From NCBI GenBank assembly GCA_946497145.1, contig CAMMJA010000010.1, positions 1 to 35,033 of the forward strand: a stretch of DNA of 35,033 bases, read 5' to 3'. Shown here piece by piece: positions 10,143-15,784 of the stretch; positions within the stretch are counted from its first letter, which is position 1; every line of letters starts with the position of its first letter. The DNA is from an uncultured Mycoplasmatota bacterium (GTDB lineage Bacteria; Bacillota_I; Bacilli_A; RF39; UBA660). Under the pieces are notes generated by a model. That model was not told the DNA's origin and did no database searches. It worked only from the letters and a program-made list of their open reading frames with translations. The translations under genes and the position numbers were made by a program.

Positions 10143-12065
10143 ATGAGACGAACGTTTTGTTACTATTTTTTCTTTTTTTTGTATTTAGAAATTGTTTTAC
10201 ATTGGGCATGTTATCAAAGCGTTTCTTTTTCTTTTCTCTTAATGGCTTTTCTTTTTACCATTCCCTTTGCGATTTTATTTGGAATGTTGTGTAGTTTTTT
10301 TAAAAAAGAACGGATCAATGGTATTTTGTTTAAAGTGATTACCACATTTTTTATCATTCTTTATTTGAGTGAGATGATTTATTATCAGATTTACAACTCA
10401 TTTTTTTCTTACCAAGGACTCTTGTTTTTGAGTGCAGTAAAAGATGGTTTTGATAAAGTATTTCAAACGATTGTAGAAAACATTGGATTCGTTATTTTAT
10501 TTTTACTACCTTTGGGTTTTATTTACAGCAAGCATACTAAATATTTAAAACGATTGGAATCTTTAGAGTGTTTTGCCTTTGCTTGTTTCTTTATTTTGTT
10601 TCAGTTGTTTCCTACATTTATCATTAGTTATAGTGACAAAGATGACTTTTATAGTATGTATCATCTTTATTATCATTTGAACGTTCCGTTATTTAATGTC
10701 GAAAATTTTGGCTTTTTAACGTCAACTAGAATGTCTCTACAACGAGAGTTGTTTGGTTTTCAAGAACAAGTTCCAGAGTCAGAAGATATTTTAAATAACG
10801 ATAGTACTTCGTTGTTGTCGTCTACAAAGGTAGAATTTAATAAAAGTTCGATTGATTTTTCGAAAGTATCTGCACCAAACGATACGATTCAACAACTGCA
10901 TGACTATTTTGGTTCTGTTAAGCCGACTAGTAAAAATCAATATACTGGATATTTCAAAGATAAAAATGTAATTTTGATTGTTGCGGAGTCATTAGATATG
11001 GTTGCTGTGGATTCTACGTTAACACCAACTTTATATCGTATGACTTCAGAGGGAATGCTGTTTGAAAATTATTTTTCTCCTACGTATCCTGCTGGTACTG
11101 CTGATGGTGAATACATGATTGAATGGGGTTTGTTACCTATTATTGGAAATAATTATAGTTTGATCGATATGGTATATAACGAGGCACCATATATTTTGCC
11201 TAACGTGTTTAAAGAATTGGGCTATAAGACGTATGCGTATCACAATTATTATGGGTATTATAATTATCGTAATCAGTATTTTGCGCATCTTCCTTGGGAC
11301 GAGTATAAATTTGGCGATCGCGGAATGAATTTATACATGGAAAAATATCATGCGAGTGACGTCGATTTGATGGTGCAATCCGTTCCAGATTATAAAGATG
11401 AAGAACGTTTTTTTGCTTACTATATTACCTTAAGTGGTCATGGAAGTTACGATACAGGAAGTAATTATATTGTCAAGAAGAATTGGAATTTAGTAAGTGG
11501 GACGAATTATTCTGCAAACTTAAAGGGATATTTGGCTGCTAATATTGAATTGGATCGAGGGCTTGCTCATTTGATTCAAGAATTAGAAAAAAGTGGGGCA
11601 TTAGATGATACGGTAATTGCAGTGACATCTGACCATACGCCTTATTATTTAACAGGCGATCAATTGAATCAAAAGTCATCGATTGATCGAAACGATAAAT
11701 TTGATCGAAATCGAGGAATTTTCTTTATTTGGAATAGTGAAATGAAAACGGGAACCAAAGTAGAAAAGTATGCAATGAACATCGATGTACTTCCTACTCT
11801 TTTAAACTTAATTGGGTATCCATATGATTCTAGATTGTTGATGGGCAAAGACATTTTGTCAAATTCAGAAGGATTGGCTATTCTTTCAGATCGTAGTTGG
11901 ATCAATGAATATGGAAGATACGATACAAGTCGCCAAAAGTTTTATCCGGCTAGTGACAAAGTAGTGGGTGAACAATATGTGGCGATGAAAAATCAAGAAG
12001 TTGCCAAAATGTTTCAAATTTCTTCGACCATGCAGTATCAAGATTATTATCAATATTTATTTTAG
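10143..12065 (+). CDS. LtaS-like lipoteichoic acid synthase (sulfatase fold)
   Basis: Membrane enzyme (640 residues) expected to transfer glycerol-phosphate from phosphatidylglycerol to build lipoteichoic acid outside the cell. Five hydrophobic segments fill residues about 5-165, followed by a linker and an extracellular sulfatase-like domain from about residue 270. Metal and catalytic residues are visible: NVILIVAESLD (Glu282), the nucleophile Thr319 in PAGTADGEY, and VTSDHTPYY (Asp497, His498). An LTA synthase implies a Gram-positive envelope and argues against a wall-less organism. It is the first gene of a two-gene operon with an unknown anchored protein. A related polymer role (other sulfatase-fold phosphotransferases) cannot be excluded. 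Confidence 0.88.
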   Translation: MRRTFCYYFFFFLYLEIVLHWACYQSVSFSFLLMAFLFTIPFAILFGMLCSFFKKERINGILFKVITTFFIILYLSEMIYYQIYNSFFSYQGLLFLSAVKDGFDKVFQTIVENIGFVILFLLPLGFIYSKHTKYLKRLESLECFAFACFFILFQLFPTFIISYSDKDDFYSMYHLYYHLNVPLFNVENFGFLTSTRMSLQRELFGFQEQVPESEDILNNDSTSLLSSTKVEFNKSSIDFSKVSAPNDTIQQLHDYFGSVKPTSKNQYTGYFKDKNVILIVAESLDMVAVDSTLTPTLYRMTSEGMLFENYFSPTYPAGTADGEYMIEWGLLPIIGNNYSLIDMVYNEAPYILPNVFKELGYKTYAYHNYYGYYNYRNQYFAHLPWDEYKFGDRGMNLYMEKYHASDVDLMVQSVPDYKDEERFFAYYITLSGHGSYDTGSNYIVKKNWNLVSGTNYSANLKGYLAANIELDRGLAHLIQELEKSGALDDTVIAVTSDHTPYYLTGDQLNQKSSIDRNDKFDRNRGIFFIWNSEMKTGTKVEKYAMNIDVLPTLLNLIGYPYDSRLLMGKDILSNSEGLAILSDRSWINEYGRYDTSRQKFYPASDKVVGEQYVAMKNQEVAKMFQISSTMQYQDYYQYLF

Positions 12066-12075
12066 GCGGTGAAGT

Positions 12076-12867
12076 ATGAGAAAAAAGAGAACGATTCTTT
12101 TAATTGTTGGGTTAATCTTCTGTTCTTTTGTCTTGTTGCTTTCAGGAGTGATTTATTATGATCTTTCCTATCAAGTAAAAAACTATCATTATGTGAATCG
12201 GGAAGAATACGACGAGGTTCAAGAAGGAATTGCTTTTATTCAAAAATTACCGATCCAACTTAATATTTTAAATCATTCTTTTGTTGACATGAATTTGTTG
12301 AAAGTAGAAGACCAAGAACAAATACTTTTAAGTTACGTTATGAAGAACAAACAAGATATTGCACCGTGTATGAATGAAATGGATACTTCTGATTATAAAT
12401 GCCTTTCGTTAGATGAATTACAGGATACGTCACTACAGTCCCTCTTTGGTCTTGATTTGACTTTTGAAACAGAAAAAATAGATTTGTATTCGGAAGTTTA
12501 CGGTTCACAGGAGTTGGTAAAGACGGATGATTGTTATCGGTTTCAAGTGGGATATTCAGATAATGAAGGATTAGAAAATTATTCTTATTTTGTGAAATAT
12601 AAACAAGAAGGAGATAATTATTTATATTATTTTTATCAGGGATATTATAATAGTACATGTGATGCGAAAAACGGATATCAATTGACGAATTATATCGATG
12701 GAGAAGTGGTTGAACAAGAAGAGTGTACGGTAACTCAGCCATTTTCTAATCTTTCTTCTAGTAAAAGAGAAAAACTACAACTTTATAAATACATATTAAG
12801 AAAAGATGAAAGCGGCAAGTTTTATCTTTATGGGTACAATCCAGTGAAAAATATAGATGCAGAGTAG
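12076..12867 (+). CDS. Unknown membrane-anchored extracellular protein with five cysteines
   Basis: I do not recognise this 263-residue protein. A positively charged start (MRKKR) and one hydrophobic segment (residues about 7-28) look like an N-terminal signal anchor that leaves some 235 residues outside the cell. The exported part is acidic, rich in Tyr, and contains five Cys (98, 109, 153, 195, 217), so up to two disulfides are possible. There is no lipobox: the only membrane Cys (16) lies inside the hydrophobic run. It starts 10 bases after the LtaS-like gene and shares its terminator, so it is probably an accessory or partner of that enzyme; this is inference from operon context only. The stop codon lies within the terminator stem. 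Confidence 0.75.
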   Translation: MRKKRTILLIVGLIFCSFVLLLSGVIYYDLSYQVKNYHYVNREEYDEVQEGIAFIQKLPIQLNILNHSFVDMNLLKVEDQEQILLSYVMKNKQDIAPCMNEMDTSDYKCLSLDELQDTSLQSLFGLDLTFETEKIDLYSEVYGSQELVKTDDCYRFQVGYSDNEGLENYSYFVKYKQEGDNYLYYFYQGYYNSTCDAKNGYQLTNYIDGEVVEQEECTVTQPFSNLSSSKREKLQLYKYILRKDESGKFYLYGYNPVKNIDAE

Positions 12868-14020: not shown

Positions 14021-14647
14021 ATGAACTATAAGAATACTAATGATTATGAAGTACTGTATTTAATTGGAGAAAACAAAGAAGATGCATTAGAAACCATCTA
14101 TGAAAAATATCGACCTATGATTTTATCGTTTGCTTATAAGTACTACAATATGGTCAAAGGAAAAGGGCTTGAGTTAGACGATTTTATACAAGAAGGATAT
14201 ATTGGTTTAGATCGCGCAATCAGGAAGTATGCCTTGAAAAAAGAATGTTTGTTTTATACGTTTGCTGTACTTTGCATAGAAAGACAGATGCAGACTGTAG
14301 TTCGCAATTATCAAACATTGAAGCAAGAAGTTTTGAATAATGCAGTTTCTTTAGATTATGTGTTGCCTTCTAGCAATATGATGGTAAGCGATGTGGTGGA
14401 GGATTCGGTGGAAATAGATCCTTTGGATCGTGTACTAGATTTTGAGTATCAGAAGAAATTGATTTTGTTTCAACATAGTTTGTCGATTGTCCAAGAACAA
14501 GTTTTTCAACTTCGCTTTAATGGCTTTCGTTACGATGAAATTGCAAAACTGCTTTGTCTTTCTAAAAAAAGTGTGGATAGTCATTTGGTTCGCATTCGTA
14601 AAAAACTCATTGCTTGTGGCTTGAAAGAAGTAGATTTCGAAGCGTAA
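14021..14647 (+). CDS. sigH: SigH-like RNA polymerase sigma factor
   Basis: Alternative sigma-70 family factor of 208 residues. Region 2 is visible as EKYRPMILSFAYKYY...LELDDFIQEGYIGLDRAIRKY (core-binding and -10 recognition), and region 4 as VFQLRFNGFRYDEIAKLLCLSKKSVDSHLVRIRKKL, a helix-turn-helix for the -35. Its place after rlmB and before secE is that of B. subtilis sigH (Spo0H), so I assign it to that group; the intervening yacP is missing. In B. subtilis SigH drives competence and early sporulation. The role here is unknown, and no target promoter class was identified in the window. The ATG follows AGGGGG at unusually close spacing. No clear terminator follows. Confidence 0.85.
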   Translation: MNYKNTNDYEVLYLIGENKEDALETIYEKYRPMILSFAYKYYNMVKGKGLELDDFIQEGYIGLDRAIRKYALKKECLFYTFAVLCIERQMQTVVRNYQTLKQEVLNNAVSLDYVLPSSNMMVSDVVEDSVEIDPLDRVLDFEYQKKLILFQHSLSIVQEQVFQLRFNGFRYDEIAKLLCLSKKSVDSHLVRIRKKLIACGLKEVDFEA

Positions 14648-14701: not shown

Positions 14702-15328
14702 ATGAACGATAAAGTAAATCTAAAGGAATGGTTAACATTTCATAAAGATCACGATCAAATGCGCAATTTGTTTTATCAGATGGATGCCAAGATGAAATAC
14801 ATTCATAGTAGAGGGTATTATATTATGAATTTTCAACCTGATAAAATTGAAATAGGAAATCATGACATCTTTTTTGAAGAATTGGGTAGTATGACACAAC
14901 AAGATTATCAAACGTTGATGAACCATAATATTTATACACTTTCATTTTTGGAAATTGCTAGTTATTCTGATTGCTTAGATTTTTTAAAGCCGAGTTTTTT
15001 AAATGAACATTTTGAAGAATTTATTCCGTTTTTACCGTCTGATGATATTTTGTATTATCGAAGTGTGATACAAAATAAAAAATATTATTATTTAACTGAT
15101 TATGCGAATGTGCAAAAGCAACAATTTAGTGATGAGAACAAATCAGCAGGAGATACGAATCGACATCAGCGTTCTTTGGTCAAAGCAACGGCTGCAGGTA
15201 AACTTTATCAGGAAGAAGAGGAGCATTATAGTAACGCTGCCTTTGTCAATGTAGTAGTACTATCTTCTTTTGTGGTGGCCTCTACTTTGATTACGTTGCT
15301 TACGGTGATACTTTTTGCATTAAAATAA
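14702..15328 (+). CDS. Unknown tail-anchored protein with kinase-loop-like motifs
   Basis: Not assigned to a family I can name with certainty. The 208 residues comprise a soluble N-terminal part (about 1-178), an acidic stretch EEEEH, and one C-terminal hydrophobic segment (about 180-207), so a cytoplasmic tail-anchored protein is likely. Residues 31-60 (MKYIHSRGYYIMNFQPDKIEI, then DIFFEELGS) resemble the helix E, catalytic loop and DFG region of Ser/Thr protein kinases, with the catalytic HRD replaced by IMN. HNIYTLSF resembles kinase subdomain IX. If real, it is a catalytically dead C-lobe without an N-lobe. It is a single-gene transcript between sigH and secE, where B. subtilis has rpmG. 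Function unknown. Confidence 0.7.
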   Translation: MNDKVNLKEWLTFHKDHDQMRNLFYQMDAKMKYIHSRGYYIMNFQPDKIEIGNHDIFFEELGSMTQQDYQTLMNHNIYTLSFLEIASYSDCLDFLKPSFLNEHFEEFIPFLPSDDILYYRSVIQNKKYYYLTDYANVQKQQFSDENKSAGDTNRHQRSLVKATAAGKLYQEEEEHYSNAAFVNVVVLSSFVVASTLITLLTVILFALK

Positions 15329-15454: not shown

Positions 15455-15784
15455 ATGAAAAAACAGACGACAGAAGATAAAGTACAAAAGGAAAAGAAAC
15501 AATCGAAAGAAAAACTAGCAGAAACGAAAAAACAAGCAAATAAAAACAAAGATGAGAAGAAAAAGTCGACTTCTAAAAAACAACCAAAGAAAGAGAAAAA
15601 GAATATTTTTAAACGTTTGATTGATTTTTTAGGCGATGTAAAAAAAGAAATGAAAAAAGTACATTGGCCTAGTAAGAAAGATATGGTGAAGTATTCTATT
15701 GCTACTCTTTGCTTTATTGTGTTTTTCTCTTTGTTCTTTTACTTGATCGACATTATTTTTGCATTTATTAAATCTTTGGTATAA
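15455..15784 (+). CDS. secE: Preprotein translocase subunit SecE with long Lys-rich N-terminus
   Basis: Essential clamp subunit of the SecYEG channel. The conserved part is FLGDVKKEMKKVHWPSKKDMVKY (amphipathic helix and the family's V-WP motif), followed by one membrane helix (about residues 80-105). The 109 residues are long compared with 59 in B. subtilis. The extra length is a hydrophilic N-terminal tail of about 50 residues with around 22 Lys and no hydrophobic stretch, so it is not the extra membrane helices of E. coli SecE. It is the first gene of the secE-nusG unit, as in most bacteria. The start ATG is preceded by TGGTGA; no closer alternative start would remove the tail without losing the ribosome site. 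Confidence 0.93.
   Translation: MKKQTTEDKVQKEKKQSKEKLAETKKQANKNKDEKKKSTSKKQPKKEKKNIFKRLIDFLGDVKKEMKKVHWPSKKDMVKYSIATLCFIVFFSLFFYLIDIIFAFIKSLV

Follow-up and report, generated by a model that had tools for sequence, protein, structure and literature searches.

What kind of protein is encoded between a sigma factor gene and secE in the window (the whole stretch of 35,033 nucleotides that was analysed), and with which partner might it act? An earlier note on this DNA had placed an open reading frame at 14702-15328 next to sigH and secE, and had taken its product to be a degenerate kinase C-lobe followed by a membrane helix. The coordinates, strand and gene order were confirmed, and the protein is called KLP here. 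The gene and its two immediate neighbours are:

14702..15328, + strand: KLP gene, encoding a tail-anchored C-lobe pseudokinase of 208 aa (open reading frame with ATG start; 61-115 homologues with intact frames; AlphaFold mean pLDDT 90.3)
14021..14647, + strand: gene for a divergent SigH-like sigma factor, the conserved neighbour upstream of KLP (NCBIfam SigH models at E 7e-28 to 2e-23, under the equivalog cut-offs; upstream in 108/113 loci)
15455..15784, + strand: secE, the neighbour downstream of KLP, given as context only (TIGR00964 over cut-off; at most 250 nt away in 79/104 loci)

The gap between sigH and KLP is 54 nt in the window, with a family median of 45 nt. The proposal that KLP forms a single-gene transcript is not supported: this gap is short, a search for a promoter of its own found promoter-like hexamers at chance frequency, and the hairpin that follows the gene, a candidate terminator, is weak (z -2.1). 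Matches to a sigma-H-type promoter pattern across the window numbered 19, with 13 expected. Further upstream, positions 12076-12867 encode a 263-aa protein with a hydrophobic N-terminal stretch that matches no NCBIfam family; its gene is flanked by an LtaS-like gene (10143-12065) on one side and by the mrnC-rlmB-sigH cluster on the other.

KLP is a homologue of the protein kinase C-lobe

Within the protein, the following features are distinguished:

14714..15151, + strand: cytoplasmic kinase C-lobe-like domain, residues ~5-150, comprising helices D and E, strands 6-9 and helices F to I (hmmsearch, hhalign with shuffle null, AlphaFold/Foldseek)
14804..14848, + strand: degenerate catalytic loop, residues H35-I49 (HSRGYYIMNFQPDKI), in which HRD is replaced by IMN and KPxN by QPDK (ungapped profile alignment to kinases; column counts)
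14879..14887, + strand: DFG position, occupied by E60-L61-G62 (profile alignment; column counts)
15182..15199, + strand: linker motif KATAAG, in the low-confidence linker ahead of the transmembrane helix (regular expression, 32/61 members; alignment; low pLDDT)
15236..15319, + strand: C-terminal transmembrane anchor, residues ~179-206, with a conserved AAF ahead of it (hydropathy, 60/61 members)

Homology of KLP to the protein kinase C-lobe is firm, because hmmsearch, hhalign, AlphaFold and Foldseek all agree. The kinase alignment that had originally been made by eye is thus upheld by profile, profile-profile and structural results, and its residue equivalences (IHS, IMN, QPDK and ELG, with NIY as the start of helix F) agree with the profile alignment at every position. 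When the single KLP sequence was compared with the PDB by phmmer, the matches were nearly all JNK-type kinases, with the alignment falling on the HRD region at E ~0.09, which taken alone is weak support for a kinase relation. An hmmsearch of the PDB with an 8-member KLP profile, which had no kinase among its sequences, returned protein kinases first (TTK at E 1.7e-4, PERK at E 5e-3). In hhalign, the 61-member KLP alignment matched PrkC and compact kinases with P ~1e-7 to 1e-9 (8e-8 before trimming); after removal of gappy columns the KLP-kinase score was 63.5 to 64.5, whereas 150 column shuffles reached no more than 24.4 and the reversed profile 9.8, and a control alignment of KLP with the sigma-H profile gave no match.

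The AlphaFold model, computed from the 61-member alignment, has a mean pLDDT of ~90 overall and ~98 across residues 11-140, and its elements follow in the order short N-terminal strand, helix D, helix E, catalytic-loop region, strands 7-9 and helices F to I; after the lobe come a linker of low confidence and a long C-terminal helix. The best 50 Foldseek matches in the PDB consist entirely of kinases, pseudokinases and kinase-fold proteins (among them RNase L, PAN3, ULK2, WEE1 and PERK), with a best E of 2.7e-3 and a probability near 1. A fold unrelated to kinases, or failure to match a kinase profile, had been named beforehand as grounds for abandoning the proposal; what was found is a kinase C-lobe at pLDDT ~98 and a significant hhalign score.

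The protein offers, as had been claimed, no room for an N-lobe: its Met1 aligns to the region of kinase helix D, and the gene starts 54 nt after the end of sigH. In one compact kinase (locus L069) ~130 residues precede the point where KLP Met1 aligns, and some KLP members have variable N-terminal extensions (by eye). KLP has the C-lobe topology and the profile relation of the protein kinase-like superfamily, and lacks the N-lobe with its Gly-rich loop and VAIK Lys. Pfam PF00069 gave no match to the KLP of the window, and matched 2 of the 61 members with a best E of 0.06.

Catalytic residues are lost and structural residues are kept

The features by which an active Ser/Thr kinase is recognized (HRD Asp, KPxN, DFG and a Pfam gathering score) are not those of KLP. 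Among the 61 members, Asp occupies the HRD Asp position in 7 and the DFG Asp position in just 4, Asn occupies the KPxN Asn position in 9, and Lys is not among the commonest residues at the KPxN Lys position. Because the N-lobe, HRD, DFG and VAIK Lys are missing, KLP cannot phosphorylate by the usual kinase chemistry. Helix-E His35, on the other hand, is retained in 56/61 members (92%), and the other conserved positions are I49, F58, N/D76-I77, Y88, P112 (87%), Y118 (95%)-Y119 and Y130 (98%). Residue conservation in KLP is structural rather than catalytic, and the pattern in the C-terminal half of the lobe (FLKENFxxFxxFLPxxDxxYYxGV...Y..DY) suggests a candidate binding surface.

Linker and membrane anchor

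That the protein ends in one membrane helix applies to the family as a whole: all but one of the 61 members carry a single strong hydrophobic segment at the extreme C-terminus, the median number of residues past the best 19-mer being 3, and the lone member without it is a shorter frame missing the tail. The linker ahead of the helix carries a motif whose family form is K/Y-S/A-T/N-x-x-G-R/K (KSTxxGR type), present strictly in 32 of the 61 and more loosely in others; as read from sequence, it is a possible binding or phosphorylation site. A search for the linker and transmembrane tail elsewhere in the genome of the window found KLP to be the sole carrier.

Similar tails occur on unrelated proteins in a few relatives, and treatment of the tail module as a defined domain was rejected as too weak. 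These are tail-anchored proteins with unrelated N-terminal domains and a KLP-like end (L235:1495-1884, L096:1498-2328, L097:1423-1743, L098:1495-2130 and L071:2998-3747), sharing a linker with GRVKVxS or GGR and then G/A-F-V and one transmembrane helix; the L098 and L071 genes occupy a common locus adjoining a SpoVS-like gene and a methyltransferase gene.

Family size and distribution

A first search of relatives gave 7 homologues beyond the KLP of the window, at 58 to 24% identity. In 291 genomes of the host bacterial family the KLP profile then made 66 raw matches, and 61 were kept as members; the five left out were weak or partial matches to other proteins, three of which are kinase-like with an N-lobe (L069, L070 and L073). 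The 61 members have intact frames and are spread over ~38 of 150 genera, no KLP being detected in roughly three quarters of the genera sampled. In a class-wide sample of 395 genomes KLP is confined to the UBA660/RF39-type family of gut Bacilli, and the sole match outside the host family (L094) is a full kinase. A scan of genome contigs with the single protein found nothing; a 14-member alignment later gave a second collection of 73 named loci of gut metagenome-assembled Bacilli, including Candidatus Faecimonas, a genus within UBA660 (PMC12661832). With duplicates removed, the two collections together hold 115 distinct members. No credible family covering KLP was found in Pfam, NCBIfam, PADLOC or PHROGs. 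The KLP family is vertically inherited and previously unannotated, and it is restricted to a single gut Bacilli family of the UBA660/RF39 type.

Gene neighbourhood and co-evolution

The proposed linkage to secE and sigH proved unequal in its two parts: it is strong for sigH, and weaker for secE, where it is partly inherited with a conserved chromosomal neighbourhood. The upstream neighbour is sigH in 108 of the 113 members with enough upstream sequence, in 105 of them within 250 nt. Of the 104 members with downstream sequence, 79 have secE at a distance of at most 250 nt and 9 have it farther away; the other 16 have no secE there, and most of these retain sigH upstream. Five loci have KLP without adjoining sigH, and at L064, L066 and L068 secE is present downstream with sigH absent upstream. 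All 30 KLP-less relatives that were examined retain sigH, followed by secE or by unrelated genes. At L066, one of the loci where KLP lacks sigH, the gene between nusG and rplK (L066:4408-5112) codes for what by eye is a small kinase-like protein of a different type.

Mirror-tree comparison gave rho values of 0.82 for KLP-NusG, 0.75 for KLP-RlmB and 0.56 for KLP-SigH. With rlmB held constant, the partial correlation for KLP-sigH is 0.36 versus 0.27 for the control pair secE-sigH, and that for KLP-secE is 0.58, a value drawn from a short secE alignment with noisy distances. By this measure KLP follows the species tree, with no clear excess of co-evolution with SigH. SigH itself evolves very fast in the host family, at a mean distance of 1.29 versus 0.46 for RlmB and 0.17 for NusG over the same loci.

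A soluble subfamily with a separate anchor gene

In six genomes from three genera a soluble C-lobe relative stands directly behind sigH in place of KLP, and wherever the gene after it could be read, that gene encodes a small tail-anchored protein. The soluble lobe and the anchor of the next gene look like one unit divided between two genes. In hhalign the soluble subfamily scores ~39 against KLP (shuffle maximum 21) and gives no signal when aligned directly with kinases, and a model of medium confidence has kinases as all of its best 50 PDB matches; the kinase relation of this subfamily therefore comes from its similarity to KLP and from the model, not from direct hhalign. Searched for in 392 genomes of the phylum, the subfamily gave weak, partial matches only. 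It has been seen with sigH and without adjoining secE. Lobe, anchor and sigH thus travel together even when split, since the soluble protein and its anchor gene follow sigH. The tail-anchored next genes (L140:3810-4253, L144:81-584, L145:2072-2563, L146:2099-2542 and L147:2081-2455) carry a linker motif like RVRVxTxG.

Probable function and alternatives

Computation shows the fold of KLP, its loss of catalytic residues, its anchor and the order of the genes: a cytoplasmic C-lobe of 140-150 residues is joined to a C-terminal anchor by a flexible linker that holds a short conserved motif, and hardly anything lies outside. Such a protein most likely acts as a non-catalytic protein-binding module at the membrane. 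In this wide form, as a non-catalytic, membrane-tethered, protein-binding lobe, the reading is very probably correct. The best explanation taken whole, in which a C-lobe-only pseudokinase would serve as a membrane-held binding module with SigH as its likeliest partner, stands at about even chances. KLP would then sequester the SigH-like sigma factor or hold it at the membrane in an anti-sigma-like manner. Sigma-H as the partner is a tentative proposal, drawn from gene order and topology by analogy; it is favoured because anti-sigma factors are usually encoded in this order, a sigma gene and then a gene for a membrane protein whose N-terminal domain is cytoplasmic, and because the link to sigH is tighter than the link to secE. 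The adjacency to sigH may nevertheless be inherited rather than functional, since the region is a conserved chromosomal cluster. In its most specific form, with a kinase fold reduced to its C-lobe and now serving as a membrane-tethered, anti-sigma-like regulator of sigma-H, one branch having split lobe and anchor into two genes, the proposal is doubtful.

DNA uptake would be a plausible output of such sigma-H control, because sigma-H drives competence genes in non-sporulating Bacilli and because comEA-comEC is present; activation of competence genes by sigma-H is described for S. aureus, Listeria and L. sakei (PMC3486894, PMC4754846, PMC3364868). The comEA and comEC genes of the genome to which the window belongs lie at L253:200-2969, so that part of the DNA-uptake machinery is encoded.

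KLP could instead have nothing to do with SigH and serve, like EssB/YukC and TraF, as a membrane scaffold on which an envelope machine is assembled, its position behind sigH being no more than a conserved address. EssB and TraF are indeed membrane pseudokinases that serve as interaction hubs (PMC3694306, PMC13037476), and the evolution of KLP tracks the species tree and not SigH; yet PF10140 exceeds its cut-off in 0/37 host-family genomes, KLP has neither an N-lobe nor an extracytoplasmic domain, and secE is the sole secretion gene among its conserved neighbours, which leaves this alternative unlikely. It is improbable that KLP is a partner or substrate of PrkC, which its C-lobe would bind and which would phosphorylate the conserved Thr in the KSTxxGR linker: PrkC (587 aa) is the single PF00069 Ser/Thr kinase found in the genome of the window, and the linker does hold a conserved S/T-T-x-x-G motif, but a PF00069 kinase is also found in KLP-less relatives and the motif is absent or changed in about half of the members. 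A role as a factor for SecE or the translocon would account for the proximity of secE in 79/104 loci, for the three loci (L064, L066 and L068) with secE and without sigH, and for the partial KLP-secE correlation of 0.58; with secE missing downstream at 16/104 loci that mostly keep sigH upstream, with a soluble subfamily seen beside sigH and no adjoining secE, and with noisy secE distances, such a role is quite improbable. That KLP is a functionless, decaying remnant of a kinase gene, as loss of the catalytic residues and N-lobe might suggest, is hardly credible given more than 100 intact frames in ~38 genera, strong conservation at H35 (92%), Y118 (95%), Y130 (98%) and P112 (87%), and retention of position and anchor across very deep divergence.

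Whether or not the anti-sigma-like reading of KLP is correct, the family indicates that a lone kinase C-lobe can persist as a membrane-anchored module genomically tied to an alternative sigma factor. Should the link to sigH be functional, KLP would provide a testable handle on sigma-H control in abundant uncultured gut bacteria (UBA660/RF39), where a literature search found no report on sigma-H regulation, and it would represent, in genome-reduced gut Bacilli, a sigma-factor regulator of a new structural class. To our knowledge the kinase C-lobe fold is not known as a sigma regulator.

Comparison with known systems

Membrane anti-sigma factors of the RsgI or RsiW type are encoded behind their own sigma genes. 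KLP resembles them in the order of sigma gene and membrane protein, in its N-terminal cytoplasmic domain and in its single transmembrane helix, and in its predicted orientation it is an N-in, single-pass protein encoded directly behind a sigma gene. It differs in having a kinase C-lobe in place of an anti-sigma domain and in having no extracytoplasmic sensor; sigma binding by KLP is a prediction. Neither Pfam nor NCBIfam gave an anti-sigma family for KLP, and the Pfam families listed for members include none.

The comparison with EssB/YukC drawn in the earlier note survives as an analogy, that of a pseudokinase with a membrane helix, and not as membership. Both proteins have at the N-terminus a cytoplasmic kinase-like domain that lacks catalytic residues, one transmembrane helix and a likely non-catalytic role in interaction. 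EssB/YukC (PF10140, type VIIb secretion), however, has a two-lobed kinase domain and, at its C-terminus, a helical domain outside the cell (PMC3694306), whereas KLP has the C-lobe alone and stops at the transmembrane helix, with no outer domain. Membership was rejected on the PF10140 result above, there being no such match in KLP or in the families listed for members, and the KLP profile made no significant match to two YukC loci. TraF of pIP501 (Gram-positive T4SS) is likewise a membrane pseudokinase and acts as an assembly hub, but its N-domain is bilobal and its C-terminal domain is large and TPR-like (PMC13037476), and neither is present in KLP. A conjugation-like (T4SS) cluster is encoded in a reduced genome (L072:526-5856), with a VirB4-like ATPase and a large SpoIID/NlpC-like, amidase-like membrane protein (by eye).

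The annotated bacterial pseudokinase families ActPs1-3, GLW, CP1 and Yegi1 (PMC12599244) share with KLP degenerate catalytic motifs, and several are membrane-associated; a term search of the review's main text turned up neither a C-lobe-only family nor truncation nor a sigma-factor link.

The full kinases nearest to the KLP profile are compact kinases of gut Bacilli (L069, L070 and L094; E 1.7e-9 to 1e-4 in a small set). Scattered compact kinase-like proteins of 250-300 aa are encoded in the host family (L069:2734-3630, L070:2632-3498 and L073:2674-3441). KLP aligns to the compact kinases from helix D onward, whereas they retain the N-lobe, and L070 and L094, unlike KLP, also retain catalytic-loop and DxD/DFN-like motifs. 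By profile PrkC is farther from KLP than the compact kinases are; these are a possible source from which KLP may have arisen.
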